Positions 1,766-36,493 of a DNA stretch of 37,665 nucleotides are shown one piece after another. This DNA is from a virus, in the IMG/VR virus record IMGVR_UViG_3300032665_000097, positions 1 to 37,665 of that record; one strand, 5' to 3'. Numbering within the stretch: position 1 is the stretch's first letter; the number at the start of each line of letters is the position of its first letter. Both the position numbers and the translations under genes were made by a program. Under the pieces are notes generated by a model. That model saw only the letters and a list, made by a program, of their open reading frames with translations. It did no database searches and was not told the DNA's origin.

Positions 1766-3336
1766 TGCCGACGTTCACTTTTACATCGCCGGAAGGTAAG
1801 TCATACGACATTACTGGGCCTGAAGGTTCCACGAAGGAACAGGCTTTTCAGATTTTGCAACAAAAAATCGGTGGCGCTAAACCGGCGTCAACTGAACAAC
1901 CCCCCGCCGAAAAACCAAGCATGAACCTCGGTCAAGCCAACCCGATTGCGGAACCGCTGATGGCAATGGGAACGGGCATGATCGCGAAACCGGTTTCCGA
2001 CGTAGCCGGACTTGCAGCCCTTGCTGCTGCACCTTTTTCCGGTGGTCGCATCGACCCGACTGCGGTTAAACGGCGCGTGCAGGAGGCGATGACGTATGAA
2101 CCGAAAACGGAAATCGGGAAGGCGCTGACTGAATACAATCCGTTGGCGTTGGCGGGGAAGGCGGTTGACTGGGCAGCACACGGCGTAGGAAATGTCGTGC
2201 GCGGAACGGCCGGCAGCGATACGTTGCGTGGCGCTGCTGGAAACGCGATTGAAGAAGCGATCAAGCAGGCGCCGAATTTCCTCGGAGCCAAAGCCGCAGA
2301 GAATCCGGCTGCGATATCTCAGTTCGCTAAAGACACGGCAGCATCCGCCGCTAAAGTCGCTGAACGCGCAGGCAAGGCTGTGACGCCGACACTGGACGCG
2401 CAGACGTTGGCGGTTGCGAAAAAAGCATCCGACATTGGAATCAAGATCACGCCTGACATGCTGACCGACAATAAATTCATGCGCCTTATCGGTCAAGCAT
2501 CGCGTGACGTTCCGCTGTCCGGCGCCGTTACCCATGAAAACCGCGTTGCGTTCAATCGCGCTGTGATTGATTCATTCGGTGGTGATGTGACGCAACCGAA
2601 AATTACGCCGCAGGTATTTTCGTCTGCCATGTCGAAACACGGAAAAACGATTGGCGATTTGTCGGAAAAATATCCGATTGACATCAATCAGGGTCTGAAG
2701 GGCGGACTTGACCAATACCTGATGGACATGCGCCGCGAAACGCCGGATGTGAGAAACATCGTTGAAGGCTACGTGTTCGATATCAATCAGGCGGCAGCAA
2801 AAGACGGCGTGATTGACGGCGCAGCGTTCAGAAAAATTCGCAGCAAATTGACCGGTCAGATGCGCCGAACGAATAACGGCGATCTGAAATACGCTTTGTC
2901 GAAACTGGACGATGTGATGCTGGATACGATTCAGTCGAAACTTGGCGAGGCAGAGCGTCCGGTATTTGACCAAGCGCGCGCGTACTACGCCAACGGTAAA
3001 ACGGTCGAACCGCTGATTGCCAAAGCCGCCGCAAAAGGCGCGGGCGACATGAGTCCAGCAGCACTGGCAAACCGTATTACCGCTACTGGCGCAGGGAAAA
3101 CCAATGTGGCAATGGGGCGCGGCGGTCAACTGGCGGACATCGCCGCGGCTGGATCACGGTTTATCACGGAACCGAAATCCTCGATGACGGCTGAACGAGG
3201 ACTGACCTATGGATTGCTTGGCGGCGGAACGATGGTCAATCCGTTGGCTGCGGCCGCACTGTATGGCGGCGCGAACCTGTACAACCGGCTGGGTCCGCGG
3301 ATTGCTAAACGAATCATCAAGGCGCAACAACCTTGA
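1765..3336 (+). CDS. Probable DNA-ejection/structural protein, 523 aa
   Basis: The N-terminus (about residues 1-35, with TFTSPEGKSYDITGPEGSTKEQAF) resembles a short N-terminal module I know from many phage internal or ejection proteins. The rest is Ala/Gly-rich and helical. A Gly/Ala-rich hydrophobic segment near residues 480-515 (GLLGGGTMVNPLAAAALYGG) could insert in or contact a membrane. The start overlaps the previous stop by one base and the stop overlaps the TTG start of the next gene by four. I see no lytic transglycosylase active site. The role in genome ejection is inferred from the N-terminal module and location. Confidence 0.7.
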   Translation: MPTFTFTSPEGKSYDITGPEGSTKEQAFQILQQKIGGAKPASTEQPPAEKPSMNLGQANPIAEPLMAMGTGMIAKPVSDVAGLAALAAAPFSGGRIDPTAVKRRVQEAMTYEPKTEIGKALTEYNPLALAGKAVDWAAHGVGNVVRGTAGSDTLRGAAGNAIEEAIKQAPNFLGAKAAENPAAISQFAKDTAASAAKVAERAGKAVTPTLDAQTLAVAKKASDIGIKITPDMLTDNKFMRLIGQASRDVPLSGAVTHENRVAFNRAVIDSFGGDVTQPKITPQVFSSAMSKHGKTIGDLSEKYPIDINQGLKGGLDQYLMDMRRETPDVRNIVEGYVFDINQAAAKDGVIDGAAFRKIRSKLTGQMRRTNNGDLKYALSKLDDVMLDTIQSKLGEAERPVFDQARAYYANGKTVEPLIAKAAAKGAGDMSPAALANRITATGAGKTNVAMGRGGQLADIAAAGSRFITEPKSSMTAERGLTYGLLGGGTMVNPLAAAALYGGANLYNRLGPRIAKRIIKAQQP

Positions 3337-4646
3337 AGATATTGTTGATGGACTCCAACCTCTACGGCCTAGACTTCGCCCTGCGCTGCAAGGACGACGG
3401 TCACGATGTCCGTTTGTGGTTGCCGCCGAAAAAAGGTGGTGATCTGCATACGATTGGCGACGGCATGGTGGACAAACCGGTTGAGTGGAAACCCAGCATG
3501 AACTGGGCGGATCTGATTGTCCTGACCGACAACAGCGTTTACCGCGGCGAACTGAAACCGTATTTCGACAAGGGCTATCCGATATTCGGAACCCCGGACG
3601 AGGGCGCGCAACTGGAACTCGACCGAGAAAAAGGTCAGCAGGCGTTCGAGGACTGCGGAATCGACACGCTGCCGTTTGAGACGTTTACCGATTACGACAA
3701 GGCGATCAAGCACGTTATCAAAACCAAGAAAGCCTATGCCTGCAAACCGTGGGGCGGGGCGTCGGACAAGGCGCTGTCGTACGTCGCGTCAACGCCGGAA
3801 GACATGGTGTTCCAGCTTGAAAAGTGGAAAAAAGACGGACTCAAAGGCCAGTTCATGCTACAGGAAAAAATCGACGGCATCGAAATGGGCGTGTCCGGCT
3901 GGTTCGGTCCGAGTGGATTCCTGTCCGCCATCGAAGAAGACTGGGAAGAAAAGAAACTGATGAACGAAGGGCTGGGCGTGAATACCGGCGAGCAGGGTAC
4001 GATCCTCCGGTACGTCAAGGAATCAAAACTGTTCGACGAACTCTTGTCTCCACTGGAAGACTACCTCCATTCGATTGATTACGTCGGCAACATCAACGTG
4101 AACGCGGCGATCGACAAGGACGGCAAACCGTGGCCGTTTGAGTTCACGACCCGTTTAGGCTGGCCGGCTACGCATTTGGAAGTTTCGCTGCACCAGGGAG
4201 ATCCCGCAGAATGGATGCTGGATTGCATCGAGGGGCGCGACACGCTTGAAGTGTCCGACGATATCTGCGTTGGCGTAGTGCTCACCCACGGCGACTATCC
4301 GAACGGTGACAAAACGGGGCGGCATTTCGAGGATTACCCTGTGCGCGGGATCACGACTGAAAACCGTGAAAACCTGCATTTCTGCGAGATGAAAGAAGGC
4401 AAGGCGCCGGCTGAAATCGGCGGCACGATCAAAGATGTCACCATGCCTGTGACCGCAGGCGATTACGTGCTGGTCACGACCGGATGCGCGGGAACGGTCA
4501 AGACGGCTGCAGACATTGCCTACGACACGATCTGGGAAATCAACGGGCTGTGTAATCGGCAATTCAGAACGGACATCGGAAAGCGGCTGAAAAAGGAATT
4601 GCCGAAATTGCAGGCGATGGGGTATGCGATGGGGATGGAATACTGA
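3333..4646 (+). CDS. PurD-like ATP-grasp enzyme, 437 aa
   Basis: The N-terminus MKILLMDSNLYGLDFAL matches the first strand and loop of phosphoribosylamine-glycine ligase (PurD). It is followed by GYPIFGTP-x-E-x-A-x-LE near 85-100, an ATP-grasp lysine region around KPWGGASDK (residues 138-146), and NINVNAAI then FEFTTRLGW near 253-277, the counterpart of the PurD metal-binding EFN-x-R-x-G-x-PE block. Length is close to bacterial PurD (about 430 aa). The start is TTG at 3333 (TTGA overlap with the preceding stop, AAGGCG upstream), because starting later would remove the first strand. An ATP-dependent carboxylate-amine ligase is likely; the substrate is unknown. A purine-biosynthesis role is doubtful because the gene sits alone among virion genes. 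Confidence 0.8.
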   Translation: MKILLMDSNLYGLDFALRCKDDGHDVRLWLPPKKGGDLHTIGDGMVDKPVEWKPSMNWADLIVLTDNSVYRGELKPYFDKGYPIFGTPDEGAQLELDREKGQQAFEDCGIDTLPFETFTDYDKAIKHVIKTKKAYACKPWGGASDKALSYVASTPEDMVFQLEKWKKDGLKGQFMLQEKIDGIEMGVSGWFGPSGFLSAIEEDWEEKKLMNEGLGVNTGEQGTILRYVKESKLFDELLSPLEDYLHSIDYVGNINVNAAIDKDGKPWPFEFTTRLGWPATHLEVSLHQGDPAEWMLDCIEGRDTLEVSDDICVGVVLTHGDYPNGDKTGRHFEDYPVRGITTENRENLHFCEMKEGKAPAEIGGTIKDVTMPVTAGDYVLVTTGCAGTVKTAADIAYDTIWEINGLCNRQFRTDIGKRLKKELPKLQAMGYAMGMEY

Positions 4647-4972
4647 TGGGGCAGGCAGATTATCAAGATCCCGGTAATTGGAACGCAATATGTTCCATGT
4701 GCGGGGCAAAAAGAAAAGCGTCTGAACTGGTCAAGAACTGGCAGGGTCAGTGGCGCTGCGTATCCCATAACGAACCTCGCCAAGACCAGGATTTCGTCCG
4801 CGCCATCGCTGACGTTCAAACGCCGCCGTGGGTGCAGCGTCCGATTGATAGTTTCGTTGCCGTGTGCTCGCCGAACGATCAGACGGCGATTCCGCGTCGT
4901 GCAATACCGTCATGCGTCAAACCGGGATACATCGCACCCGGATATGATTCGACTGCGCCACTTTTAGACTGA
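4646..4972 (+). CDS. Conserved phage zinc-finger-like protein, 108 aa
   Basis: The N-terminal half has ICSMCGAKRKASEL followed by WRCVSH, a CxxC plus C-x2-H arrangement typical of a small zinc ribbon. The middle (QDFVRAIADVQTPPWVQRP) and the C-terminal AIPRRAIP/KPGYIAPGY segments resemble a short protein found beside tail genes in many phages. Its start shares a base with the stop of the ATP-grasp gene. It is probably a virion-assembly or minor structural protein; the exact function is unknown. Confidence 0.75.
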   Translation: MGQADYQDPGNWNAICSMCGAKRKASELVKNWQGQWRCVSHNEPRQDQDFVRAIADVQTPPWVQRPIDSFVAVCSPNDQTAIPRRAIPSCVKPGYIAPGYDSTAPLLD

Positions 4973-7404: not shown

Positions 7405-7673
7405 AACAGCGACGGCACGGAATCATCCGTGACCTGAACGACCTAGTTCGTGACCCGTCCACGGAGAAAGTATCGCAAGGACTCGTCTGGATGAACGTAG
7501 GCAAGGGCTGCTGCGTCTACCTGCTGCTGTATCACACGAAAGAACTGATCGACCATTGGGATACCCTGTCGATTCTGCTGACGTTCCTGATACTGCCGCA
7601 CATTGCGACGCGGATTATTGAGGCGAAGTACGGGATTACGCCACGTTCGGAGAATGGAAATGCAAACAAGTGA
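7374..7673 (+). CDS. Small membrane protein, second holin candidate, 99 aa
   Basis: It overlaps the previous gene by 31 bases and the endolysin start by 14. Two hydrophobic stretches, roughly VGKGCCVYLLLYHTKELI and TLSILLTFLILPHIATRII, would give a helical hairpin with a soluble N-terminal 40 residues. Because the endolysin next to it lacks a signal sequence, a pore former must act in this cluster. Either this protein or its neighbour is the best candidate; the assignment is inferred. Confidence 0.65.
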   Translation: MPARKNLHQVEQRRHGIIRDLNDLVRDPSTEKVSQGLVWMNVGKGCCVYLLLYHTKELIDHWDTLSILLTFLILPHIATRIIEAKYGITPRSENGNANK

Positions 7674-8085
7674 ATCCGGTAAAGCCATAATCCGCAAGCA
7701 CGAAGGATTGAGGCTTACCGCGTATCAGGATATTGGCGGCGTCTGGACGATTGGCTACGGGCATACGCTAGGCGTTCGCGCCGGCCAGGTCATCAACGGT
7801 GACGAAGCCGAATCCATGCTGGAACAGGATTTGGTCGCGGTCGATAAATGCCTGTCGAACAGTGTTCGGGTATCGGTCACGCAGAACCAGTGGGATGCTT
7901 TGGCTGATTTCGTGTTTAACCTTGGATGCCATGCACTCGGCGGGTCAACCCTCCTGAAGCTTCTGAACGACGGGAACGACGAAGCGGCATCCGCAGAATT
8001 CCCGAAGTGGGATCACGACAACGGGAAGGTAGTCGAAGGACTGCTTGAGCGCAGGATTGAAGAACAGACGCTGTTTAATACTTAG
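7660..8085 (+). CDS. Endolysin, T4-type lysozyme (GH24), 141 aa
   Basis: This muramidase cleaves the beta-1,4 bond between MurNAc and GlcNAc in host peptidoglycan at lysis. The catalytic triad spacing is exact: Glu15 in KHEGLRL, Asp24 in YQDIGG and Thr30 in WTIGYGHT (E-x8-D-x5-T). The lysozyme core continues with QWDALADFVFNLG. ATG 7660 is preferred because GGAG lies seven bases upstream; longer starts add arginine-rich sequence unlike the family. There is no signal peptide or signal-anchor helix, so release depends on a holin. The stop is followed by a strong ribosome-binding site for the next gene. Confidence 0.93.
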   Translation: MQTSESGKAIIRKHEGLRLTAYQDIGGVWTIGYGHTLGVRAGQVINGDEAESMLEQDLVAVDKCLSNSVRVSVTQNQWDALADFVFNLGCHALGGSTLLKLLNDGNDEAASAEFPKWDHDNGKVVEGLLERRIEEQTLFNT

Positions 8086-9746: not shown

Positions 9747-9818
9747 TTATCCTTTCAGTGCTTCGTCAAATTTCATGGCGGCTTTATAAACGCGCTCCTT
9801 CGCGGATTGGGTGGTCAT
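9747..9818 (-). CDS. Candidate 23-aa microprotein between coupled genes
   Basis: ATG 9818 shares ATGA with the stop of the alanine-rich gene. The frame reads MTTQSAKERVYKAAMKFDEA then LKG and stops at 9747-9749. It contains the ribosome-binding site (AAGGAT) of the next gene. It could be a true small protein or a translational relay linking its neighbours. The overlap pattern matches the rest of the operon. Confidence 0.45.
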   Translation of the reverse strand: MTTQSAKERVYKAAMKFDEALKG

Positions 9819-10387
9819 AGAAATTGCCAAAAGCAGTCGCGGACAAGTTCGTTAAAATCTTGTCTAGCAGCACCCCAAGCAGCGTGCAAAGCAGCGGCCC
9901 TAGCAGCGTCCATAGCAGCGTCCATAGCAGCGGCCTTAGCAGCGGCCCTAGCAGCGTCCATAGCAGCGGCCCAAGCAGCGGCCCTAGCAGCGGCCCTAGA
10001 AGCGGCCTTAGCAGCGTCCCAAATTTTTTCGTCGCCGGTCATCAGGTAATCCAGCACAACATCCGGCGCATCGTCGTATAAATGGATGACCGAAAGGGCT
10101 TGCATACGAGCGAAATAACGCAACATTTCGGTTGCATCCATTCGCGCCACAATGCGCCGACGAGTGCAGACCAATTTGTCTGATTGCTCGGTCACGATGC
10201 CGTCAACATCAACCAAGCAAAGCGTTGATCCGGGCGCGAACTGAAGCGCGTCAAACGGGTCATAACTGGCGTGTAATCCGGTCTGGCAGATTTGAACCGG
10301 TACCTTATGCTCAAGCCACGCACCGTTGCGCGGAATGTCCCGACCGCCGCGCAGCTTGTCGCCAACAAAATGCCATGCTCGTTTCAT
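9815..10387 (-). CDS. Conserved phage protein with alanine-rich repeats, 190 aa
   Basis: Residues 1-125 form a conserved domain (MKRAWHFVGDKLRGGRDIP, GLHASYDPFDALQFAPG, DKLVCTRRRIVARMDATEML) that I recognise as a widespread phage or bacterial protein of unknown function. After DYLMTGDEKIWDAA comes an Ala-rich tail of short repeats (AAxxAARAAA, AAMDAA) over residues about 125-172, then a short polar end. The tail is encoded by GCAGCG-rich DNA and probably forms a long helix. It starts in an ATGA overlap. No enzymatic motif is seen. Confidence 0.8.
   Translation of the reverse strand: MKRAWHFVGDKLRGGRDIPRNGAWLEHKVPVQICQTGLHASYDPFDALQFAPGSTLCLVDVDGIVTEQSDKLVCTRRRIVARMDATEMLRYFARMQALSVIHLYDDAPDVVLDYLMTGDEKIWDAAKAASRAAARAAAWAAAMDAARAAAKAAAMDAAMDAARAAALHAAWGAARQDFNELVRDCFWQFL
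9867..10020 (-). repeat. GCAGCG-rich tandem repeats encoding the Ala-rich tail
   Basis: Plus-strand units such as GCAGCGTCCATA and GCAGCGGCCCTA recur about fifteen times in 9- to 12-base steps within the coding sequence. They translate on the minus strand to AAMDAA and AARAAA units. Such repeats are prone to copy-number change by slippage or recombination. Confidence 0.8.
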
Positions 10388-13398: not shown

Positions 13399-13598
13399 TT
13401 CGTTTCCCTCCATCTCTCTCGATAATCCGTTTCCCGATCGTCTGTTTGATCGTCGTCCATTACGTGCCGCGATTCGTCGTCTTGGCGGCGGTATTCTTCG
13501 GGCGTTTCGTGGTCGTCAGCGGGCGTCGGCTCGCTCGAACTCTCGGATGTAGTCGATGCAGGCTTCACTCCATCCGTCGATGTGCGTCCATTGCCCAT
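13395..13598 (-). CDS. Candidate highly charged small protein, 67 aa
   Basis: This frame overlaps the 3' end of the Ro60 gene by 83 bases and ends in an ATGA overlap with the next gene. ATG 13598 has GGAG six bases upstream. The C-terminal half is dense in Asp, Glu and Arg (DDHETPEEYRRQDDES, DDDQTDDRETDYRERW). The tidy stop/start coupling supports it; the Ser/Thr-rich N-terminal half could be an out-of-frame artefact, with a shorter start possible. Confidence 0.45.
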   Translation of the reverse strand: MGNGRTSTDGVKPASTTSESSSEPTPADDHETPEEYRRQDDESRHVMDDDQTDDRETDYRERWRETK

Positions 13599-14913
13599 AG
13601 CCGACTCCGTTCTGGTTCGATGCCACGTTGATGACGTAACCTTTGCCATGCGGCGGCGCGATGCCGTCTGCGGTCTGTTCGTCCGTGATGACGATGATGC
13701 GGTCGTATTTCATGTTGACCGCCTGCATGTCGATCTGCGTCTGAAATGTCTGCGAAAATCCGTAGTAGGCGGACTGGTAGCGATGCAAACCAGTGGCCGC
13801 TTTGCCATGCAGCGCCTCGATTGACGCTGCCAGATGTGTGCCGGAATGAGGTTGACTGTTGTTCATCGCATCACGCAGCGCGAAGCCACGGCGCGGCGCA
13901 CACTGAATCAGTTTGTCGCTGAACGTGAACACCGCAACGGACTCACAGATTTCTCGCAACAGCACGCCAAGCCCGAATCCCGCGTCCATTCGCGATGCCT
14001 GCGACTTGCCCGATACCTTGTCAGCCATCGAACCGGATACATCGACCAGCAGAACGGTATGGCCTGCCAGCTTGTCCTGCGTGCCGAGGCACTTGAACAT
14101 CAGCGGCTCAAGAATGTCCTCCCATTGCGGAACGAAACGCGCAGCGGTGATGAAGCGAAACGGCAACGCGCGCTCGACGTTCAATTCAGCGGCATAGGCG
14201 GCGACCAGCGATTTATCGACGCCGGACTCTGCCATGTTTCGCAGGTTGCGAATGAACGCGAGTGCAAACAATTTTTTCTCGGCCATCAGGCGCTCGAAGG
14301 TGGCTTTCTTGTCGGCGCCACCGGACAGCGCGACCTCCCACGTATCGGGCGTCACCAGCGATTTATCGACCAAGCGTTTCCAGATTGCCGCCTGCGCGTC
14401 GTCCTTCGGCTTGGCGTGGCTGATGAACAGCACGTCGCGCAATTTCACCGCACCATCGCGGTTGTATTTCGCAAGGTTGTATTCGTCGAATTTGCCGAAC
14501 GCGCGGGCAAGTCCTTTTTTGACTTGTGCCGAAACTTTCTGGCGACCGTCTTTCCAGTAGATCGCCAAAAACTCCGTCAATTCGTCGGCGCGTTGAATGA
14601 CTTGCGCGAGCGTGGAAGCGACTAGCGCCTTGTGTTTCGGCAATCGCGCCATCTCGCGCACAATCAGCAGCGGCGCATGACGGAGTTTCATTTTGCCCCG
14701 CGCTTCGATTGCGATTGCGGCAACTTTGGCCGGCTCGACTTCGGCGATCAGGCTGGCGATACGCTTGGAAATTTCCTCGCCGGACTCGTAGAACGTGTCC
14801 TCCCACAACATGCACGCCATGACGCTGCGGCGCAGTTGCAGTTCAGGATTGATGTGTTGGGCGGTTGCGCCTTCGTGGGTGAATATCGGCGCACGGACGG
14901 TATTGATTTTCAT
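13516..14913 (-). CDS. rsr: Ro60/Rsr-like TROVE-domain RNA-binding protein, 465 aa
   Basis: Ro60 orthologues are ring-shaped RNA-binding proteins that hold Y RNAs on the outer surface and misfolded or single-stranded RNA ends in the central hole. Residues 1-275 form the TROVE HEAT-like repeats (RRSVMACMLWEDTFYESG, LLIVREMARLPKH, ELTEFLAIYWKDG, VLFISHAKPK). Residues 285-460 form a von Willebrand A domain with an intact MIDAS site: Asp291-x-Ser293-x-Ser295 (DVSGS), Thr359 (SGTHL) and Asp411 (ITDEQT). GGAGG lies upstream of the ATG. Length is slightly below human Ro60 (538 aa). It follows three Y-RNA-like elements in its leader. Confidence 0.9.
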   Translation of the reverse strand: MKINTVRAPIFTHEGATAQHINPELQLRRSVMACMLWEDTFYESGEEISKRIASLIAEVEPAKVAAIAIEARGKMKLRHAPLLIVREMARLPKHKALVASTLAQVIQRADELTEFLAIYWKDGRQKVSAQVKKGLARAFGKFDEYNLAKYNRDGAVKLRDVLFISHAKPKDDAQAAIWKRLVDKSLVTPDTWEVALSGGADKKATFERLMAEKKLFALAFIRNLRNMAESGVDKSLVAAYAAELNVERALPFRFITAARFVPQWEDILEPLMFKCLGTQDKLAGHTVLLVDVSGSMADKVSGKSQASRMDAGFGLGVLLREICESVAVFTFSDKLIQCAPRRGFALRDAMNNSQPHSGTHLAASIEALHGKAATGLHRYQSAYYGFSQTFQTQIDMQAVNMKYDRIIVITDEQTADGIAPPHGKGYVINVASNQNGVGYGQWTHIDGWSEACIDYIREFERADAR

Positions 14914-21752: not shown

Positions 21753-21923
21753 TCAGGACTCCATCAGTGAGCGGTAAACGCGCCCAGTCTTGCGCCAGAT
21801 ACAGGCGTAACCCCGTGGGGCATACCATAGGAACCGTTCATAGACGCGGCGCAGGCTGTCAGAGTGGAACATCATGCGGCCGGCATCGTCGCAAATCATG
21901 TAGTGCGGTCTGGGCGTCACCAT
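21753..21923 (-). CDS. Small hypothetical protein, 56 aa
   Basis: The frame begins at ATG 21923 or GTG 21920 (GTGA overlap with the beta-helix gene stop) and stops at 21753. It reads HYMICDDAGRMMFHSDSLRR, VYERFLWYAPRGYACIWRK and ends RVYRSLMES. The strongly aromatic and basic content suggests a compact small fold. Function unknown. Confidence 0.65.
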   Translation of the reverse strand: MVTPRPHYMICDDAGRMMFHSDSLRRVYERFLWYAPRGYACIWRKTGRVYRSLMES

Positions 21924-22711
21924 ACGATTTTTGCCGGTTTAACAACCATCAAAGCTAGATCAATTGCAGCCCTGTATTGCTTGGCGTAATCGTTATCACC
22001 ATGAGTTTCTGATACCGCACGCAAAAACTTTTCGACCGAATCCGAAAAACACCCTGTCGTTACGCGGATTACTATTTTTGCGTCCGCATGAATGGTGAGC
22101 GTTGCGCGACGGGAACCAAGCGGGCCGACAAGCATCAAATCCGCATTGCCGGAGACCCGCGCATTGCCGGAGACCTGCGCATCGCCGGAGACCCACGCAT
22201 TGCCGGAGACCCACGCATCGCCGTAGACCCACGCATTGCCGGAGACCCGCGCATTGCCGGAGACCTGCGCATTGCCGGAGACCCGCGCATTGCCGTAGAC
22301 CCACGCATCGCCGGAGACCCGCGCATTGCCGGAGACCTGCGCATTGCCGGAGACCTGCGCATTGCCGGAGACCCACGCATTGCCGGAGACCCGCGCATTG
22401 CCGGAGACCCACGCATCGCCGGAGACCCGCGCATTGCCGGAGACCTGCGCATTGCCGGAGACCTGCGCATTGCCGGAGACCCACGCATCGCCGTAGACCC
22501 GCGCATTGCCGGAGACCTGCGCATTGCCGGAGACCCACGCATCGCCGTAGACCCACGCATCGCCGGAGACCGAAATATTTTCTTCTTTCTCAATCCATCC
22601 GCCGATTTCGCCCTTGACCACAGAGCCAAACGAAGCAACTGCGCGGATACGATTAAGGGTAACGTCACAAACATTTTTTGTTTCGCCGGTAAATTCAAAT
22701 TTAGAGTTCAT
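21917..22711 (-). CDS. Hexapeptide-repeat left-handed beta-helix protein, 264 aa
   Basis: The N-terminus (FEFTGETKNVCDVTLNRIRA, VKGEIGGWIEKEENIS) matches the capping domain of a phage/bacterial family with a GGWIEKE motif. From about residue 45 to 190 follow about 24 six-residue repeats of the type V-S-G-N-A-x or V-Y-G-D-A-W. A small aliphatic residue every sixth position is the signature of left-handed parallel beta-helices. A non-repeat domain of about 70 residues ends the protein. ATG 22711 matches the family start. Known relatives lack a firm function; binding or scaffolding is possible. Confidence 0.85.
   Translation of the reverse strand: MNSKFEFTGETKNVCDVTLNRIRAVASFGSVVKGEIGGWIEKEENISVSGDAWVYGDAWVSGNAQVSGNARVYGDAWVSGNAQVSGNAQVSGNARVSGDAWVSGNARVSGNAWVSGNAQVSGNAQVSGNARVSGDAWVYGNARVSGNAQVSGNARVSGNAWVYGDAWVSGNAWVSGDAQVSGNARVSGNADLMLVGPLGSRRATLTIHADAKIVIRVTTGCFSDSVEKFLRAVSETHGDNDYAKQYRAAIDLALMVVKPAKIVW
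22141..22575 (-). repeat. About 24 tandem 18-bp coding repeats
   Basis: On the plus strand the unit GCATTGCCGGAGACCCGC recurs with changes at a few fixed sites (CATTGCC/CATCGCC, GGAGAC/GTAGAC, CCGC/CCAC/CTGC). Because 18 is a multiple of three, several other frames stay open across the array, giving long false reading frames on both strands. Confidence 0.93.
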
Positions 22712-22734
22712 CTCGTAGCCCCTTTGTTCGATGG

Positions 22735-22884
22735 TTAGCTGCACAAAATTACGACAACCAGCACGCACAGGTAAAAAACGGTAATCCAGCCGATTGTGCG
22801 TGCTTCCTGTCGATCTGCTGCCCGTTCGTTAATGTGTTTCATGTCCTGCATGTGCAGGCGGTGGATGGTTTCGTAATCTGTCAT
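22735..22884 (-). CDS. Small single-pass membrane protein, 49 aa
   Basis: The frame from ATG 22884 to TAA 22735 reads TDYETIHRLHMQDMKHINER, AADRQEARTIGW, then a hydrophobic helix ITVFYLCVLVVVILC. A charged N-terminal half and C-terminal membrane helix give a tail-anchored topology. It directly abuts the stop of the upstream 38-aa gene. Function unknown. Confidence 0.65.
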   Translation of the reverse strand: MTDYETIHRLHMQDMKHINERAADRQEARTIGWITVFYLCVLVVVILCS

Positions 22885-28802: not shown

Positions 28803-29071
28803 GAGCGGTTGCTCGAAAATACTGCTCGAAAGGATTTCATCCGAAAGGATGGAAATTCTGGCGTTGCCATTACGATATGTCTACATGGCGCTGGCACATG
28901 ATCGGAAATTTCTGCATTGAGTGCGGCGAGCAGTTGGATTTGAAGGAAGTAGTTACGGTGGCAACGCCGCCACGATTCATTCCACCAAGCAGATACGCTG
29001 ATCGAATTTCTGATTTGAAAATGCGCCAGAAAAGAAAATTTTTCAGGCGCACCGAGGCGGTTACGCCGTGA
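28799..29071 (+). CDS. Basic Cys-containing protein, 90 aa
   Basis: GTG 28799 lies in a GTGA overlap. The product has CSKGFHPKGWKFWRCHYD and NFCIECGEQLDL, suggestive of a zinc site, then a basic tail (DLKMRQKRKFFRR). Codons are more A/T-rich than neighbours. The stop overlaps the GTG start of terL. Function unknown. Confidence 0.65.
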   Translation: MRAVARKYCSKGFHPKGWKFWRCHYDMSTWRWHMIGNFCIECGEQLDLKEVVTVATPPRFIPPSRYADRISDLKMRQKRKFFRRTEAVTP

Positions 29072-30579
29072 CCGCCGCCGTCGAACAGGTCGCCCCGTTC
29101 ACCGCCGCAGACTACGCCGAGCGGGGGGAAAAACTGATCGAGGCGTTCAGCGGGATGTTCCTGAGTCCGCGGTATGACCAGACAAAACCGACGCCGAATT
29201 TTGCCCGCCAAGTGTGGAATCTCTACGCATCAGACGAGAAACAGTGCGCGATTGCGGCGCCGCGGAACCACAGTAAATCTACATCGTTTACGCACGCATA
29301 CATTTTGACGGAATGTTTATTTCGGTATCAGAGTTATGTGATGCTGCTGGGCGCGTCTGAAGAAATGGCAATCGAGCACTTAGGCGACATTGCTATTGAG
29401 TTGCGAGACAACGAAGAATTGACGGCGGCATTTGGCATTAAAAAACTGGATACCGACGCCAAGACCGACATCATTTGTCGAATGAAAGACGGTCACGCAT
29501 TCCGTATCGTTGCCAGAGGCGCAGAACAAAAGATTCGCGGTAGAAAATGGAATGGTATGCGGCCAGGGCTGATTGTCTGTGATGATTTGGAGGATGATGA
29601 GCAGGTCGAATCAAAGGAACGGCGAGAGAAATTTCGCAAGTGGTTCTTTCGTGCCGCAAAACCTGCGTTGGCGGACGGCGGAAAAATTCGTATTCATGGC
29701 ACCATACTTCACGAAGATTCGTTACTCGCATGTTTGATGAAAGACGACGAATGGAAACATTTGCGTTACAGAGCGCACGAATCTTTCGATGATTTCTCAA
29801 ACATTTTGTGGCCTGAAAAATTCAGCGAAAAAGAACTACGAAAAATTCGCCAGGGGTTTATTAACCAAGGCGACGCATCAGGATATTCGCAGGAATATTT
29901 GAACGACCCGTTAGATAATTCTGACGCGTTTTTGAGAAAACAAGATTTTTTACCGATGGACGAAATGGATCACCGTGTTGCGAAAATCATGGGCTGCGGG
30001 GTCGATTTTGCGTTTTCCAAGGAACGCCGGTCGGATAACACCGCGTTTGTTGTGGGCGGTAAATGTGCGCGGAATCTGCTGCATGTGGTGGATGTGCGGA
30101 AGAAAAAATTCGACACACTGGAAACGGTGGAGACTTTTTTCGAGATTGAAAACCGGTATCACCCGCAGGGATTTTTTGTGCGGTCCGGTAAAGACTGGGA
30201 AGCGATACGGCCGGTGCTGCAGCGTGAGATGGAACGGCGCGACACGCCGATGTCGTTTTTCGTATTGCCCGACGCGCAGGACAAGAAGGTGAAGGGCACG
30301 CCGTTGCAGAAACGGATGCGCAGTGGGATGGTGCGCGTAGACAAGGAAGCCGAGTGGTATCCGGGGTTTGAGGATGAACTGCTGCGGTTCACGGGGAATT
30401 CGGCAGCGTCGAAGGACGACCAGTTCGATGCGGCAGCGAATCTGGCGGCTGGGTTCGAGAATCAGTCCGCCGTTGACGAAGAAGATTTCATGGAGGACGA
30501 CGAGGCGGCTGAGTATTACCGGCGCCGTCATGGACGACCGAAACATAACGACGGCCGATCGGTCGTGACGGGGTATTAA
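29068..30579 (+). CDS. terL: Terminase large subunit, 503 aa
   Basis: The packaging motor ATPase and nuclease. A Walker A-like loop APRNHSKST is at residues 64-72 and Walker B LIVCDDLEDDE at 168-178, followed by the coupling motif HGT near 210. The RNase-H-like nuclease domain has Asp313 in CGVDFAFS and a second acidic site DDQFDAAANLAAG near 450. GTG 29068 is used in a GTGA overlap. It is directly followed by the portal gene, as usual. Length is typical. Confidence 0.93.
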   Translation: MTAAVEQVAPFTAADYAERGEKLIEAFSGMFLSPRYDQTKPTPNFARQVWNLYASDEKQCAIAAPRNHSKSTSFTHAYILTECLFRYQSYVMLLGASEEMAIEHLGDIAIELRDNEELTAAFGIKKLDTDAKTDIICRMKDGHAFRIVARGAEQKIRGRKWNGMRPGLIVCDDLEDDEQVESKERREKFRKWFFRAAKPALADGGKIRIHGTILHEDSLLACLMKDDEWKHLRYRAHESFDDFSNILWPEKFSEKELRKIRQGFINQGDASGYSQEYLNDPLDNSDAFLRKQDFLPMDEMDHRVAKIMGCGVDFAFSKERRSDNTAFVVGGKCARNLLHVVDVRKKKFDTLETVETFFEIENRYHPQGFFVRSGKDWEAIRPVLQREMERRDTPMSFFVLPDAQDKKVKGTPLQKRMRSGMVRVDKEAEWYPGFEDELLRFTGNSAASKDDQFDAAANLAAGFENQSAVDEEDFMEDDEAAEYYRRRHGRPKHNDGRSVVTGY

Positions 30580-30581
30580 CG

Positions 30582-32678
30582 ATGCTGAACCTACAGAAAA
30601 AACTCACGCTGAACGAAAAAACGATCAAGTCGCCAAATCTGTGCGATGAGTTTGACGCCGGCGATTTACACACGATTGGTCAGCACGTCTGGGATGGATA
30701 CGACCGCGATAAATCCTCGCGCGCGCGGTGGGAACGTCGCACGGCTGCGGCGATGGATCTGGCGATGCAAGTCGTGAAATCCAAGAATTTCCCGTGGCCG
30801 AACTGCTCGAATCTGGCGTTCCCGCTGGTGACAATTGCGACACTGCAGTTTCACAGCAAGGCGTATTCCGCGCTGGTAGACGGGCGCGATATCGTGAAAG
30901 CGCGCGTGCTGGGCGAAGACCCTGACGGAAAAAAATCGCAGCGTGCGATGCGGGTTTCGACGCACATGAGTTATCAGGTATTGGAACAGGATCAGCCGTG
31001 GGAAGAACAGCACGACAAACTGCTTATAAACCTGCCGATCGTCGGTTGCGCGTTCAAGAAATCGTATTACAGTTCGAGCAAGGGGCACAACGTATCGGAA
31101 CTGGTGCTCGCGTATGACTTGGTACTGGATTACTACGCGAAATCGGTTGAAGATGCTGCGCGTAAGACACACCGGATTCCGTTGGATCGGAATGAAATTT
31201 ACGAACGGGTAAAACGCGGCGTGTTCCGTGATGTTCTGAACGAAGCGTGGTTCAAGGCCGCGGCGAATGTGCCGATTCAGGCGGACACCGGTAAAACGGC
31301 GCGCGATAACCGGCAGGGCACGAACGAGCCGGCGCAGACGGACAGCACGACGCCGTTTATGAGTCTGGAGCAACACGTTTTGATGGATCTGGATGACGAC
31401 GGGTATGAAGAACCGTACATCATCACGATTGATGAAGTATCGAAACAGGTGTTCAGAATCGTCACCGCGTTTGACGAACAGGATGTCGAGCGCGCGAAGA
31501 ACGGTGAGATTATCCAGATCAGACGGCAGCAGTATTTCACGAAGTATGCGTTCATCCCGGCGCCCGATGGCGGCGTGTACGATGTCGGTTTCGGAATGCT
31601 GCTGGGTCCGCTGAACGAATCGGTGAACACGGCGATAAACCAGTTGTTTGACGCGGGCACCATGAGCACGCTGGGCGGCGGATTCCTCGGGCGCGGCGTG
31701 AAAATTCGCGGCGGGCAGTACACGCTGGCGCCGTATGAGTGGAAACGCGTCGATTCGACCGGCGATGATTTAAACAAGAACATCGTGCCGAATCCGGTGC
31801 GCGAGCCGTCGAAGATTCTGCTCGATCTGGCGATGTATCTGATTCAGTACACCGAGCGGATATCAAACACGACAGACAACCAGGTGGGGATCGGACCGGG
31901 GCAGAACACGCCGGCCGAGACGACGCGCCGCATGGAAGCGAACGGCCAGAAGATTTACAACGCGATTTACAAGCGAATCTGGCGCGCGATGAAGGACGAG
32001 TTCAAGAAACTGTATCTGCTGAACGGGATGTATATGCCGAGCCAGCAGAAACTCGGCGTGAACGGTTCCGTCGTTGCGCTGCGCGAGGATTATCTGGGCG
32101 ACCCGAACGATATCGTGCCGGCCGCGGACCCGAACATCACGTCGGAGATCGACAAGCAGAATCAGGCTGGAATGCTCGCGCAGCGCGCGCCGATGGGCGG
32201 GTATGACCGCGATGCGGTTGAAGTGAATCTGCTCAGAGCGTATCGAATCGACGGTTGGCAGCAGTTTTACAAGGGCATTCAGGCGATTCCGCCGATGCCG
32301 AACCCGAAAATTGCGATCGAACAGATCCGGCAGCAGGCGAAAGAAGCGGACCGTAAACTGAAAATGGCCGAAATCGCCGGTCAGATGGAACAGGACGCCG
32401 AACTGAACAAGGCGAAGATTTTGCAGTTGGAGGCGCAGGCGAATTTGCTGATGGAACAGGCGGGCGGTATCCGCACAGGACACGAAATCGCTGCGTTGGA
32501 CGCGCACATCGGGCTGCTGAAGGAGCAAGATGCGGCGCGGCGCGAGTATATCGGCATGATTATGAAGTTCATCGACGACTCACACGACCGAGAAATGGAC
32601 CGTCAGAATTTGAATGTGCAGCACCGGCAGTTGGATATTCAGGAGAAAACGGCGAAAACCGCCACTAAACAGGAGTAA
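30582..32678 (+). CDS. Portal protein, 698 aa
   Basis: The head-tail connector ring through which DNA enters. Length, the position after terL, the N-terminal WPNCSNLAFPLVTIATLQFH region, the central VGFGMLLGPLNESVNTAINQ and GGGFLGRGVKIRGG segments, and a helical Gln/Glu-rich C-terminus (KILQLEAQANLLMEQAGG) fit large podovirus-type portals. The helical C-terminal region could form the barrel that extends into the capsid. The ATG lies two bases after the terL stop. Confidence 0.88.
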   Translation: MLNLQKKLTLNEKTIKSPNLCDEFDAGDLHTIGQHVWDGYDRDKSSRARWERRTAAAMDLAMQVVKSKNFPWPNCSNLAFPLVTIATLQFHSKAYSALVDGRDIVKARVLGEDPDGKKSQRAMRVSTHMSYQVLEQDQPWEEQHDKLLINLPIVGCAFKKSYYSSSKGHNVSELVLAYDLVLDYYAKSVEDAARKTHRIPLDRNEIYERVKRGVFRDVLNEAWFKAAANVPIQADTGKTARDNRQGTNEPAQTDSTTPFMSLEQHVLMDLDDDGYEEPYIITIDEVSKQVFRIVTAFDEQDVERAKNGEIIQIRRQQYFTKYAFIPAPDGGVYDVGFGMLLGPLNESVNTAINQLFDAGTMSTLGGGFLGRGVKIRGGQYTLAPYEWKRVDSTGDDLNKNIVPNPVREPSKILLDLAMYLIQYTERISNTTDNQVGIGPGQNTPAETTRRMEANGQKIYNAIYKRIWRAMKDEFKKLYLLNGMYMPSQQKLGVNGSVVALREDYLGDPNDIVPAADPNITSEIDKQNQAGMLAQRAPMGGYDRDAVEVNLLRAYRIDGWQQFYKGIQAIPPMPNPKIAIEQIRQQAKEADRKLKMAEIAGQMEQDAELNKAKILQLEAQANLLMEQAGGIRTGHEIAALDAHIGLLKEQDAARREYIGMIMKFIDDSHDREMDRQNLNVQHRQLDIQEKTAKTATKQE

Positions 32679-32680
32679 AA

Positions 32681-32944
32681 ATGCTGTCCAGAGAAGATTT
32701 TGACGCGTGGAAGGGCGACCGCAGCACTAAACAGATTTTGCAGTGGTTTCACAGGCAGATTGAGGACATGAAGGATCAGTTTGCGTCCGGCGATATCAAG
32801 CCGGAGAACGTGAACGCCGCGGTGCAGTTCATCCAGGCGCGCGCCGAGGTGATTGCGATGACGTATGACGAATACGCATCGCTGATGCGCGAAGAAGATG
32901 TCGAGTCATTGAATCCAACCAGAGATGAAGGAGAAAACGATTGA
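32681..32944 (+). CDS. Small protein downstream of portal, 87 aa
   Basis: A helical acidic protein (MLSREDFDAWKGDRSTKQIL, VNAAVQFIQARAEVIAMTYD) located two bases after the portal stop. Its stop forms a TTGA overlap with the co-chaperonin start and its 3' end supplies the GGAG site for it. Possibly a head-assembly accessory; no family known. Confidence 0.72.
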   Translation: MLSREDFDAWKGDRSTKQILQWFHRQIEDMKDQFASGDIKPENVNAAVQFIQARAEVIAMTYDEYASLMREEDVESLNPTRDEGEND

Positions 32945-33318
32945 AGAACACGTCGGGATTGAAACCGTTGGGCGCGTCGGTGTTGCTGAAGCCGTACGAG
33001 GTCGAGACGGTGACGAAAGGCGGCATCGTTTTGCCGGGGCAAGTGAGGGAACGAGACCAGCTTGCGGAACAGCGCGCCGTGGTGGTCGAAATCGGGCCGG
33101 TTGCGTGGGATGACGAACCTGCGCGCGCGAAAATAGGCGACAAAATCCTGTTCAGTAAACACGCGGGGTATGTGGCGGTCGGCACGGCTGACGGTCAGAA
33201 GTACCGAATCGTGAACGCGCGGGATATTTTCTGCCAGATTACCGAGGAAAAGGATGATGCTGATGCCGGAGGTAAAGGCGATTTCAAAGAGGAATACAAA
33301 CTGAGGGAGTCATTCTAA
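32941..33318 (+). CDS. groES-like: Phage GroES-like co-chaperonin, 125 aa
   Basis: Cpn10 proteins cap GroEL during protein folding. Seen are LGASVLLKPYEVETVTKGGI with the mobile-loop GGIVLP (the I-V-L residues bind GroEL), then AVVVEIGPVAWDDEP, IGDKILFSKHAGYVAV and YRIVNARDIFCQI as the closing strand. TTG 32941 is the start, with GGAG seven bases upstream and a TTGA overlap. About 25 acidic residues extend the C-terminus beyond bacterial GroES (97 aa). Between portal and scaffold genes it probably assists capsid folding, like gp31 of T4. Confidence 0.88.
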   Translation: MKNTSGLKPLGASVLLKPYEVETVTKGGIVLPGQVRERDQLAEQRAVVVEIGPVAWDDEPARAKIGDKILFSKHAGYVAVGTADGQKYRIVNARDIFCQITEEKDDADAGGKGDFKEEYKLRESF

Positions 33319-34184
33319 TGGCTGAACAACAAATCGAAGCCCGCGCCCGCGAAATGGGCTGGGTGCCCAAGGAAGAATTCAAGGGCAAGGAAGACCGCTG
33401 GGTTGATGCCGAACAGTATGTGGAGCGCGGCGAGCACATTTTGCCGATCGCCCAAGCGAATAATCGCCGGTTGATCGGTGAAGTCGGTCAATTGAAGGGT
33501 GAATTGGGGAAGACGCAACAGATTCTTGCCGGTGCCCTCGAATCGCTTGAAGAATTCAAAAAATACGCCGAGGACGACAAGAAAAAAGCGGTTGAGCGGG
33601 CGATTGCAAAACTGCGGTCGGACAAATCGGCGGCAATCAAGGCGGGCGACGGCGATGCGGTGGTCGAAATCGACGCGGCGATCGACGAAATCAAGGATCA
33701 GCAGACGCGCGCGCCGGTCACAAGGGCTGCGAAGGTCGAAGCTGCCGGCGCCGCCGCGCAGGACGCCAATCTGACGTTTCAAAACGAGCAGTGGTGGAAG
33801 GACTGGTCCGCCGAAAACGGCTGGTATGGTCACGATTTCGACCGTACCGTGGATTTGAATTCGGCGTCGGTAAAACTGGCGCGTCGGATTGCCGAGGGTA
33901 AGGAAACTGCGGTTCGTGGTCGAGAATTTCTTGACAGAGCGGTACAACTTATGGCAGAGTCCGCGTCAGGTAGTGGTCGGCGCGCGCAGGTGGACAAGGT
34001 TGAAGGGTCACGCGGCGGCGGCGGTCAGAGATCAAGTTCAGGGAAGTCGTATTCGGATTTGCCGGCAGACGCGAAAGCGGCCTGCGACAAATACGGGGAA
34101 AAGTTGATCGGCGAAGGGAAGATGTACAAAACCCCGGCTGATTGGCGAGCGAAATACGCGGCGGATTATTTCGCCGACGAGTAG
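33318..34184 (+). CDS. Probable capsid scaffolding protein, 288 aa
   Basis: Starts MAEQQIEARAREMGWVPKEE and is hydrophilic and helical, with coiled-coil sequence at about 55-130 (GEVGQLKGELGKTQQILAGA, DDKKKAVERAIAKLRSDKSA) and a Gly/Ser-rich stretch before a charged C-terminus. The MGW-PKEEFKGKEDRWVDAEQ-Y motif is common in phage scaffolds. It lies upstream of the capsid gene as expected and overlaps the GroES stop by one base (TAATG). Confidence 0.83.
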   Translation: MAEQQIEARAREMGWVPKEEFKGKEDRWVDAEQYVERGEHILPIAQANNRRLIGEVGQLKGELGKTQQILAGALESLEEFKKYAEDDKKKAVERAIAKLRSDKSAAIKAGDGDAVVEIDAAIDEIKDQQTRAPVTRAAKVEAAGAAAQDANLTFQNEQWWKDWSAENGWYGHDFDRTVDLNSASVKLARRIAEGKETAVRGREFLDRAVQLMAESASGSGRRAQVDKVEGSRGGGGQRSSSGKSYSDLPADAKAACDKYGEKLIGEGKMYKTPADWRAKYAADYFADE

Positions 34185-34202
34185 CGCCAGATAGTCACGC
34201 CT

Positions 34203-34272
34203 CAAGGTAGTTGTGCCAGTTAAGGTTCACCGGATGCACGGCATTGGCCGGCATCGACTGACAACTACTTTG
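34203..34272 (+). promoter_or_regulatory. Long imperfect stem-loop in the head operon leader
   Basis: CAAGGTAGTTGT (34203-34214) pairs with ACAACTACTTTG (34261-34272), 11 of 12 Watson-Crick plus one G-U. CAGT (34217-34220) pairs with ACTG (34257-34260), and GATGC (34233-34237) with GCATC (34251-34255). The structure ends about ten bases before the ATG at 34283. It could be an RNase III processing site, an attenuator or a translational control element. Confidence 0.65.
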
Positions 34273-34282
34273 AAGGCGGAAA

Positions 34283-34852
34283 ATGGCGAACGCTGCCCGC
34301 ACGACTGAGCAAGTCCAAAATCCCGCGAACACCCGCGCGCAATCGAAAGAAGAACAGCGCGCCGCGCGTAAGCGCATCCCGATGTCCATCCCACGGCTGA
34401 AGCTGCATGTGCCCGAAGGCATTTGCCCCGGCTATCACCTTCACTGGTTCCGCGACGAACCCGGACGCATCGCCCAAGCAGTGCAGGGCGGTTACGAATT
34501 CGTTGACGCCGTTGCTGACGGCGTTGACATCCTGAACAATTCACTGGCGAACACCGACAACGATTCGGGTAATACCGATCTGGGCACGCGTGTTTCGATT
34601 TACGGCGGCGCTGACGAAAAGGGCAATGCCCAGCGCCTCTACCTGATGAAGATCCGCCAAGAGTGGTTCGAAGAAGATCAGGAATCCATCCAGAATCAGA
34701 ACGACCAGACTGAGCGGACCATTCGCCAGGGTCGCGTCCGTGCGGGCGAGGGCGGCGAAAGTCAGGCCGATGTCGCCGCGCGCTATGCCCGCGCAGAAAT
34801 GAAAACCAATCGAGCCGCGGTCCGCGCTGCTGCGCCGGCTGTCAGCATTTAA
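34283..34852 (+). CDS. Conserved phage head protein, 189 aa
   Basis: Residues 30-80 (RKRIPMSIPRLKLHVPEGIC, GYHLHWFRDEPGRIAQAVQG, GYEFVDAVADGV) match a conserved protein found between scaffold and capsid genes in many podophages. The remainder is charged and helical with an Ala-rich end. AAGGCGG precedes the ATG. Likely a minor head or assembly protein. Confidence 0.78.
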   Translation: MANAARTTEQVQNPANTRAQSKEEQRAARKRIPMSIPRLKLHVPEGICPGYHLHWFRDEPGRIAQAVQGGYEFVDAVADGVDILNNSLANTDNDSGNTDLGTRVSIYGGADEKGNAQRLYLMKIRQEWFEEDQESIQNQNDQTERTIRQGRVRAGEGGESQADVAARYARAEMKTNRAAVRAAAPAVSI

Positions 34853-34870
34853 CGCAAGGAGAATTCAAAC

Positions 34871-35524
34871 ATGGCAAACCTGAACGCACCGTCCGGCCTA
34901 TCGCCAGTCCAATACCGCAACGGCAACCCGTGGAATGGCGGCGCGCGGATGTATGTCATCCTTGCGGCTGACACGAACGCTTACTGGATCGGCGATCCGG
35001 TGACGACCATCGGCACAGCCAACGGCGACTCCAACGGTATCCCGGCAGTGACGCTGGCATCAGCCGGTAACTCGGTTCGCGGCGTCATTCTGGGTATCGG
35101 CACGGCAGACGCGGGCGGTAGCGCAACGCCCGCGACGCTTCCCGGCGGTCCGTATGCCACGATGACGAATCTGGCACAAATGTATCGTCCGGCCGGCGCG
35201 CAGCCGACCAACTATTACGTTCTTGTCTGCGACGACCCCGATGTTCTTTTTGAAATTCAGGAAGGCGGCGTCGGTTCGGTCTTGACCGCGACTTCGATCA
35301 ACCGCAACGTGAACTTCAACTTGGGCACGCGGACCGGCACCGTAACCAGTTTCCCTGTGTCTCCGGTTTATCTGGACAACAACACGGTGAACACGACCAA
35401 TACGTTGAACCTGAAAATCCTATCGGCCAAACAGACGCCGGACAACGTGCCGTTCACGGCGAACCAAAAATGGATAGTGGTCATCAACAATCACGAATTC
35501 TCTGGCGGGACGACCAGCCCGTAA
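34871..35524 (+). CDS. Probable capsid decoration/structural protein, 217 aa
   Basis: A beta-rich sequence (MANLNAPSGLSPVQYRNGNP, GVILGIGTADAGGSATPATL, YYVLVCDDPDVLFEIQEGGV) resembling small virion proteins encoded just before the capsid gene. AAGGAG lies upstream. Its size and location suggest a head decoration or stabilising protein, though I cannot link it to a characterised one. Confidence 0.75.
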   Translation: MANLNAPSGLSPVQYRNGNPWNGGARMYVILAADTNAYWIGDPVTTIGTANGDSNGIPAVTLASAGNSVRGVILGIGTADAGGSATPATLPGGPYATMTNLAQMYRPAGAQPTNYYVLVCDDPDVLFEIQEGGVGSVLTATSINRNVNFNLGTRTGTVTSFPVSPVYLDNNTVNTTNTLNLKILSAKQTPDNVPFTANQKWIVVINNHEFSGGTTSP

Positions 35525-35575
35525 TCGGACACTGGCGACCATTCAGACACTTTTTGACGGCACAAGGAGAACACC

Positions 35576-36493
35576 ATGCCCGCTGGCGTAATCAATACCG
35601 CATCCCACCCAAAAACACTATGGCCGGGGCTACACGCTCTCTGGGGTCAGATTTTCACCGAACATCCGGTCGAGTACACGCAACTCTACGAAGTCGAGAC
35701 TTCCGACAAAGCGTATGAGGAAGACGTGCAGATCACCGGTTTCGGTCTGGCGCCGGTCAAGGCTGAAGGTGCCGCGATGTCGTTTGACTCGGAAGTTCAG
35801 GGTCCGGTTTCGCGCTACAACCACATCGCCTACGCGCTGGGTTACATCGTCACCTACGAGGAAATGAAAGACAACCTCTATGAAGTGGTGAGCCAGCGTC
35901 GGATCAAAGCGAATGCGTTTTCGATCAATCAGACCATCGAAATCACCGCGGCGCTGCCTTACAACCGCGCGTTCAACGCGTCATACACCTACGCGGATAG
36001 CGTCAACCTGATTTCGACCGCGCACCCGTTCACGACCGGCGGCACGTTCAGCAACCGCCTCTCGCCGGACGCCGACCTGTCGGAAGCTGCACTCGAAGAC
36101 ATCGCCGTGCAGATCATGGGTTTCACCAGCGACCGCGGCCTGTTCGTCAACGTGATGCCGCGCAGCCTGATTGTTCCGCGTCAGGAATGGTACAACGCGC
36201 ACCGCATTCTGAAATCGGTTCTGCAGTCAGGCACCGCGAACAACGACATCAATGCGCTGAAGGCGACCAACGCGTTCCCCGACGGCATCCACCTGAACCA
36301 CTACCTCACCGCCGCGCACGCGTGGTTTGTGCGGACCAACGTGATGAACGGTATGCAGTTCTTCTGGCGCGACAAGCCGGAGTTCACGCAGGACAACGAC
36401 TACGATACCAAGAACCTGAAAGCCTCGACTTACATGCGGTTTTCGTGCGGAAACACCGATCCGCGCGGTATCGCGGGCAGCAACGGACCGTAA
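35576..36493 (+). CDS. Major capsid protein, 305 aa
   Basis: The sequence has typical capsid segments: PAGVINTASHPKTLWPGLHA, YEVETSDKAYEEDVQITGFG, FDSEVQGPVSRYNHIAYALG and YIVTYEEMKDNLYEVVSQRR, followed by GLFVNVMPRSLIVPRQEWYN. The pattern suits an HK97-fold capsid subunit of the shorter podovirus type. The ribosome-binding site AAGGAGAACACC is ideal for strong expression, and tandem TAA stops end the gene. Location after scaffold supports the call. Confidence 0.87.
   Translation: MPAGVINTASHPKTLWPGLHALWGQIFTEHPVEYTQLYEVETSDKAYEEDVQITGFGLAPVKAEGAAMSFDSEVQGPVSRYNHIAYALGYIVTYEEMKDNLYEVVSQRRIKANAFSINQTIEITAALPYNRAFNASYTYADSVNLISTAHPFTTGGTFSNRLSPDADLSEAALEDIAVQIMGFTSDRGLFVNVMPRSLIVPRQEWYNAHRILKSVLQSGTANNDINALKATNAFPDGIHLNHYLTAAHAWFVRTNVMNGMQFFWRDKPEFTQDNDYDTKNLKASTYMRFSCGNTDPRGIAGSNGP

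Follow-up and report, generated by a model that had tools for sequence, protein, structure and literature searches.

A phage-specific ATP-grasp family of modified PurD type encoded behind the ejection-protein genes of short-tailed phages

Introduction

Phosphoribosylamine–glycine ligase (PurD; profile TIGR00877) is the closest described counterpart of the protein analysed here, and the substrate contacts of the Aquifex enzyme (structure 2YW2) provide the reference residues for comparison (PMC8880213). Viral surveys list purD, or phosphoribosylamine–glycine ligase, as a viral metabolic gene (PMC11097641, PMC11360552). LUZ24-like and OM43 phages carry systems that combine amidoligase, ATP-grasp and GATase genes (Iyer et al. 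2009), and other phage amidoligases have been suggested to modify the envelope (PMC10580990). Polyvalent proteins are effectors that are packaged in the virion and injected to act early; the ATP-grasp passage of the account that describes them concerns RNA ligases, not PurD-like ligases (PMC5512222). In the literature searched, the terms 'PurD-like' and 'ATP-grasp' occur together only in an unrelated context.

The locus described here lies in a 37,665-nucleotide stretch of viral DNA (IMG/VR record IMGVR_UViG_3300032665_000097), the whole of which is called the window. Its product resembles PurD in a full-length three-part fold (TM about 0.76), in most ATP and Mg residues, in the arginine for the substrate carboxylate and in the GARS_C domain. 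The family to which it belongs differs in that identity to PurD is about 20%; GDPE has become GWP followed by a variable residue, the Mg-binding asparagine is threonine and NTGGMG is replaced by xTGExGT. The GGREHA and GPExPL motifs are lost, and the family is found only in phages, within the late virion operon. Carboxylate–amine ligase chemistry is expected to be common to this locus and the amidoligase systems, but the ATP-grasp protein of the LUZ24-like phage UFV-P2 has 291 aa, is encoded on the other strand from the virion genes and adjoins amidoligase and GATase genes, whereas the GATase partner is absent beside the window family. With polyvalent and other ejected effectors the locus shares a late virion neighbourhood and, in the slot directly upstream (−1), proteins with ART, LPD23, PcfJ and sigma-70 domains. 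Polyvalent effectors are multidomain, whereas the phage ATP-grasp protein is a stand-alone single enzyme.

The ATP-grasp gene and its product

Translation of the gene is taken to begin at a TTG codon (table 1), a start supported by the fact that relatives begin at the same residue with the same stop–start overlap. The protein matches the NCBIfam purD profile (TIGR00877) with 65.3 bits (E=4.5e-18) against a cut-off of 288. Pfam domains GARS_A and GARS_C are found in it, both below cut-off, and are present in all 34 relatives tested. PurD ranks first in a phmmer search of the PDB. An AlphaFold model built from 33 homologues (pLDDT 92, pTM 0.90) returns PurD as each of its 15 best PDB matches (TM, on the query, 0.66–0.76), with PurK, biotin carboxylase and others ranking behind. 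The ATP-grasp domain with its catalytic lysine, glutamate and Mg ligands is present, one Mg ligand being threonine and not asparagine. A full-length ATP-grasp protein of PurD-like layout, as the original prediction had it, is thus borne out by profile, domains, model and structure matches alike. The same model found no full-length counterpart among the viral structure models searched (top TM 0.47). PHROGs and PADLOC gave no match for the protein. Rfam, searched with five source sequences, the window among them, returned nothing.

Table 1. Positions of the ATP-grasp gene, its active-site motifs and neighbouring genes in the window.
Feature	Position	Strand	Basis or observation
Second internal virion protein candidate, 565 aa	68..1765	+	Position (−2 slot), length
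Internal virion (DNA ejection) protein, 523 aa	1765..3336	+	phrog_26400 'DNA ejection protein', E=1.6e-30
TTGA, 4-nt overlap of ejection-protein stop with ATP-grasp start	3333..3336	+	Read from sequence
PurD-fold ATP-grasp protein, 437 aa, TTG start	3333..4646	+	ORF, domain, model and structure matches
E95-L-D-R98, counterpart of PurD LEGSK (Aquifex E100/K103)	3615..3626	+	E, R invariant
K138, counterpart of PurD ATP-binding K143	3744..3746	+	Invariant
E184, counterpart of PurD E192	3882..3884	+	Invariant
E205-x-K207, counterparts of PurD D212 (glycine) and K214 (ATP)	3945..3953	+	D to E in all members
NTGEQGT (217–223), counterpart of PurD NTGGMGA	3981..4001	+	Family signature xTGExGT
EFTTRLGWP (270–278), counterpart of PurD EFNxRxGDP	4140..4166	+	Mg ligand N to T, D to W
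Cys-rich protein, 108 aa (CxxC...CxxH, DFVR), overlaps ATP-grasp stop by 1 nt	4646..4972	+	
Tail-fibre-like glycine-rich protein, 479 aa	4980..6419	+	phrog_863, E=1.3e-21
Phage lysozyme (endolysin), end of late region	7603..8085	+	
Head module: TerL, portal, GroES-like, head proteins, MCP	29068..36493	+	

Active-site residues compared with PurD

The contacts of PurD were mapped by HMM alignment to Aquifex 2YW2 and a Salmonella PurD, and conservation was counted over 127 distinct family members, all of them stand-alone proteins of 409–464 aa with no fusion. In window numbering, E95, R98, K138, E184, K207, E270 and R274 are invariant; the counterparts of PurD E100, K143, E192, K214, E283 and R287 are unchanged throughout. 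Other positions are replaced with the same uniformity. All 127 members have R for PurD K103, Q for E185, E for the glycine-binding D212, T for the Mg ligand N285 and E for the second G of NTGG, while D290 is W in 126. The glycine-binding E292 is represented by L, D, I or A, with the glycine-binding R287 kept. Read from the family side, the specific residues Q177, E205, E220 and T272 are invariant and W277 occurs in 126 of the 127, so that E(F/W)TxRxGWP stands where PurD has EFNxRxGDPE, and xTGExGT stands in place of NTGGMG. The GGREHA motif of PurD serves the ribosyl substrate; alignment with the Salmonella enzyme finds it absent from the N-terminus of the family.

The median dN/dS of the family is 0.081 (732 pairs), and selection on the gene is strongly purifying. 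Across the alignments the ATP and Mg core shows either no change or conservative change only, and the PurD substrate residues are replaced. Together, a conserved ATP site, replaced substrate residues and low dN/dS are what would be expected of an enzyme that is kept by selection but acts on other substrates. With threonine in place of the Mg ligand N285 in every member, catalysis with two metals in the usual way is not certain. By profile score and by these residues, the window protein is very probably not PurD.

Genomic setting

The gene had been described as lying between ejection-type and fibre-like genes, and it does: a phrog_26400 protein is encoded upstream, and the Cys-rich 108-aa protein and a phrog_863 protein downstream. 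The gene for the Cys-rich protein occurs also in phages that lack the ATP-grasp gene. Translational coupling on both sides, claimed at the outset, is seen in the window as a 4-nt overlap upstream and a 1-nt overlap downstream (TGATG at 4644–4648), but it is not universal. The 4-nt overlap with the ejection gene is found at 58 of 81 loci and at 63 of 120 distinct loci, and a 1-nt overlap at nine of the 120. About 31 of these distinct loci, around a quarter, have a gap of 108–1400 nt ahead of the ATP-grasp gene, so strict co-translation is not the rule everywhere. The gap in loci of this sub-lineage appears to be non-coding, for example at 5543–6000 in L255, where consensus matching picks out promoter-like sites.

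Clustering of neighbours gives a common gene order. It starts with a P22 gp10-like stabilisation protein, followed by a GNAT or short-fibre-like gene, a 217-aa ejection-like protein, two large internal virion proteins and the ATP-grasp protein; a fibre or Cys-rich 108-aa protein and often a lysozyme come after. A GNAT acetyltransferase occupies the −4 position in many relatives (L050, 2838–3290; L298, 668–1129). Tail or ejection markers lie upstream on the same strand at 91 of the 98 loci having enough upstream DNA. Four of the remaining seven were inspected, and all four have internal-virion-like ORFs directly upstream. The predicted link to virion genes recurs in hundreds of contigs, which excludes a chance arrangement.

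Proteins of the −1 slot carry ART-PolyVal, LPD23, PcfJ-like and sigma-70 domains (Pfam), in phages with or without the ATP-grasp gene. They fall into several largely unrelated groups, and the +1 proteins vary. The idea that the −1 protein is a universal substrate, recognised by a common C-terminal tail, was rejected because the tails differ; being largely unrelated and lacking such a tail, the ejection proteins are not an obvious common substrate. The gene directly before the ATP-grasp gene in L245 (2099–6535, minus strand) encodes an internal virion protein in which an ART-PolyVal ADP-ribosyltransferase domain is present. In two related phages without the ATP-grasp gene, internal virion proteins of 1868 aa (L241, 10151–15757) and 2064 aa (L237, 5323–11517) embed sigma-70 region 2 and/or 4 together with PcfJ-like domains, and may possibly be ejected sigma factors.

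Further features of the window lie outside this cassette. A GroES-like co-chaperonin gene (32941–33318) is located between the portal and capsid genes and is kept in relatives including MW202796. A 465-aa ORF on the minus strand (13516–14913) matches TROVE/Ro60 and vWA domains, and its product resembles the RNA-binding protein Ro60. An array of 18-nt tandem repeats (22052–22661) falls within a minus-strand ORF (21917–22768) of YdcK beta-solenoid/bactofilin-like type, and 12-nt tandem repeats with 11 register copies (9841–10032) fall within another (9815–10387, minus strand).

Size and distribution of the family

Annotated phage records yielded only one close relative, in a part of MW202796 that bears no annotation (43%). 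A first alignment search of viral contigs gave 199 relatives. The second search used only the patterns NTGE[MQ]GT[VI] and E[WF]TxR[FPL]GWP; at least 596 viral contigs encode relatives, from 599 matches listed. When 84,980 cellular species genomes were searched likewise, a single contig matched, in a Nevskia MAG that also holds a separate PurD-type match. Among 369 genomes of the class to which this MAG belongs, the best matches outside that contig reach at most 139 bits, and the 19 best of these have EFNxRxGDPE and/or NTGGMG. Cellular matches with a legible motif carry these PurD-type motifs. The phage records checked score 460–755 bits, against at most 139 for cellular PurD-type proteins.

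This gap in bit scores, with the near absence from cellular genomes, marks the family on sequence grounds as phage-specific and clearly set off from PurD, from which it is descended. It is carried by many short-tailed phages, directly behind the genes for ejected proteins. Human-gut 'phage' matches of 22–26% identity were rejected as members, the records checked (L005–L008) having PurD motifs. These four (MT838306, MT835525, MT839088 and MT838152) are unverified human-faecal 'Bacteriophage sp.' scaffolds and are probably bacterial or host DNA.

Inheritance, presence and absence

In a second lineage (L001, L089, L091–L093) the ATP-grasp gene occupies the same slot. No homologues of the window MCP or portal were detectable in these five (the MCP control was positive), and their connector protein differs. 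Replication genes of the window comprise RecT/YqaJ and a VapE-type primase; many relatives have in common a large protein which we take to be UDG/DNA-polymerase-like. The same slot under two head types, with differing replication genes, implies that the ATP-grasp gene travels with the tail/ejection cassette. Three phages of the second lineage (G410–G412, the same as L091–L093) have a thymidylate-synthase-family gene, possibly for a base-modification enzyme.

Seven of the 28 MCP-related records searched carry the ATP-grasp gene. Informative negatives were confined to six long records that include the slot (G383, G385, G388, G391, G392 and G393); G394 and G390 were left out, as their contigs end inside or before it. 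In five of the six, an internal virion protein gene is followed by the Cys-rich 108-aa gene, directly or after one small ORF. The MCP tree places all six in one clade, along with one positive, and MCP distances correlate with ATP-grasp distances (Mantel 0.45, 2 of 2000 permutations). These data agree with vertical descent in which the gene was seldom lost or gained, but not with its being a mobile moron. Because one clade lacks the gene with flanks intact, it is dispensable to that virion type. The −1 proteins are longer in phages without the gene (1670–2064 aa in six complete cases, against a median of 816 in those with it), a comparison that ignores kinship and is suggestive only.

Proposed function

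The reading preferred here, held with moderate confidence, is an active ATP-grasp carboxylate–amine ligase of PurD descent that uses substrates other than those of PurD and is tied to the tail/ejection cassette. As in PurD, ATP would phosphorylate a carboxylate held by R274 to give an acyl-phosphate. An amine would then attack this intermediate, yielding an amide. Neither glycine nor phosphoribosylamine is likely to be a substrate, since their contacts are gone. The role would be tied to DNA or protein delivery, either by co-ejection with the ejection apparatus or by modification of it. Co-ejection is slightly favoured because no single neighbour is a consistent substrate candidate, and we lean slightly towards an enzyme that is delivered into the host, or used there early, and acts on a host-derived molecule. 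One specific form of this proposal is offered tentatively: a co-packaged, injected amide ligase that, as the genome enters, attaches a tag to the ejection channel itself or to a protein or metabolite of the host.

A possible though doubtful alternative is that a virion protein (ejection, tail or fibre) has an amino acid or amine ligated to it ahead of packaging. Coupled translation with the final ejection-protein gene at most loci and the conserved place between ejection and fibre genes are consistent with it, but the same neighbours occur in phages without the gene, and the unrelated −1 groups and variable +1 proteins argue against a shared target. An enzyme made late that modifies a host metabolite or the envelope, for instance in superinfection exclusion or as a lysis aid, is rather unlikely. 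The gene does lie in the late region ahead of the lysis genes, in a sub-lineage the independent gap ahead of the gene points to separate control of its expression, and envelope modification is the proposal for other phage amidoligases (PMC10580990); yet linkage is to ejection genes and not to lysis genes, and a search of 15 phages for GATase_6, the partner in those systems, found it in none (controls 14/14). Amidoligase_2 likewise matched none of the 15, but no control matched either. It is improbable that the protein binds ATP without catalysis and serves the tail/ejection cassette in a structural or regulatory way: the Mg-ligand asparagine and PurD substrate residues are invariably lost, as such a protein would allow, but the other ATP-site residues are invariant in all 127 members and so are the replacements themselves, which changed chemistry fits better than decay.

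It is most improbable that the gene is a genuine phage purD serving as an auxiliary metabolic gene to boost purine synthesis, as its fold, its automatic similarity and the viral purD listings (PMC11097641, PMC11360552) might suggest. The profile score is far below cut-off, D212/E292, N285, D290 and GGREHA are not kept, and the context is late and structural. The original observation that no other purine gene lies nearby was confirmed: none was found in the ORFs scanned, and adenylosuccinate synthetase was not found while controls were positive. DNA bases bearing amino acids or amines are known from some phages, and three second-lineage phages have the thymidylate-synthase-family gene, but DNA-base hypermodification, one of the roles first suggested, is scarcely credible, since the ATP-grasp gene keeps with the tail/ejection module across differing replication modules, and 12 of 15 phages, namely the window and 11 others, lack that gene family. 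What stands of the role first envisaged is a ligase that is an unlikely purine maker and is tied to virion genes.

Significance

The modified-PurD family is a new version of a known fold. It forms a large phage-only ligase family, present in at least 596 contigs; two motifs define it precisely, and neither PHROGs nor PADLOC, the family libraries tested, recognises it. A phage gene labelled 'purD' and taken for an auxiliary metabolic gene of purine synthesis can be something else, and viral 'purD' annotations of this kind may in part be members of this family. If the enzyme is injected as proposed, an injected amide ligase would be an activity undescribed for ejection cassettes in the literature searched. 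Related phages with and without the ATP-grasp gene, their flanks intact, provide a clean genetic test of whether ejection cassettes encode enzymes that modify small molecules or proteins.
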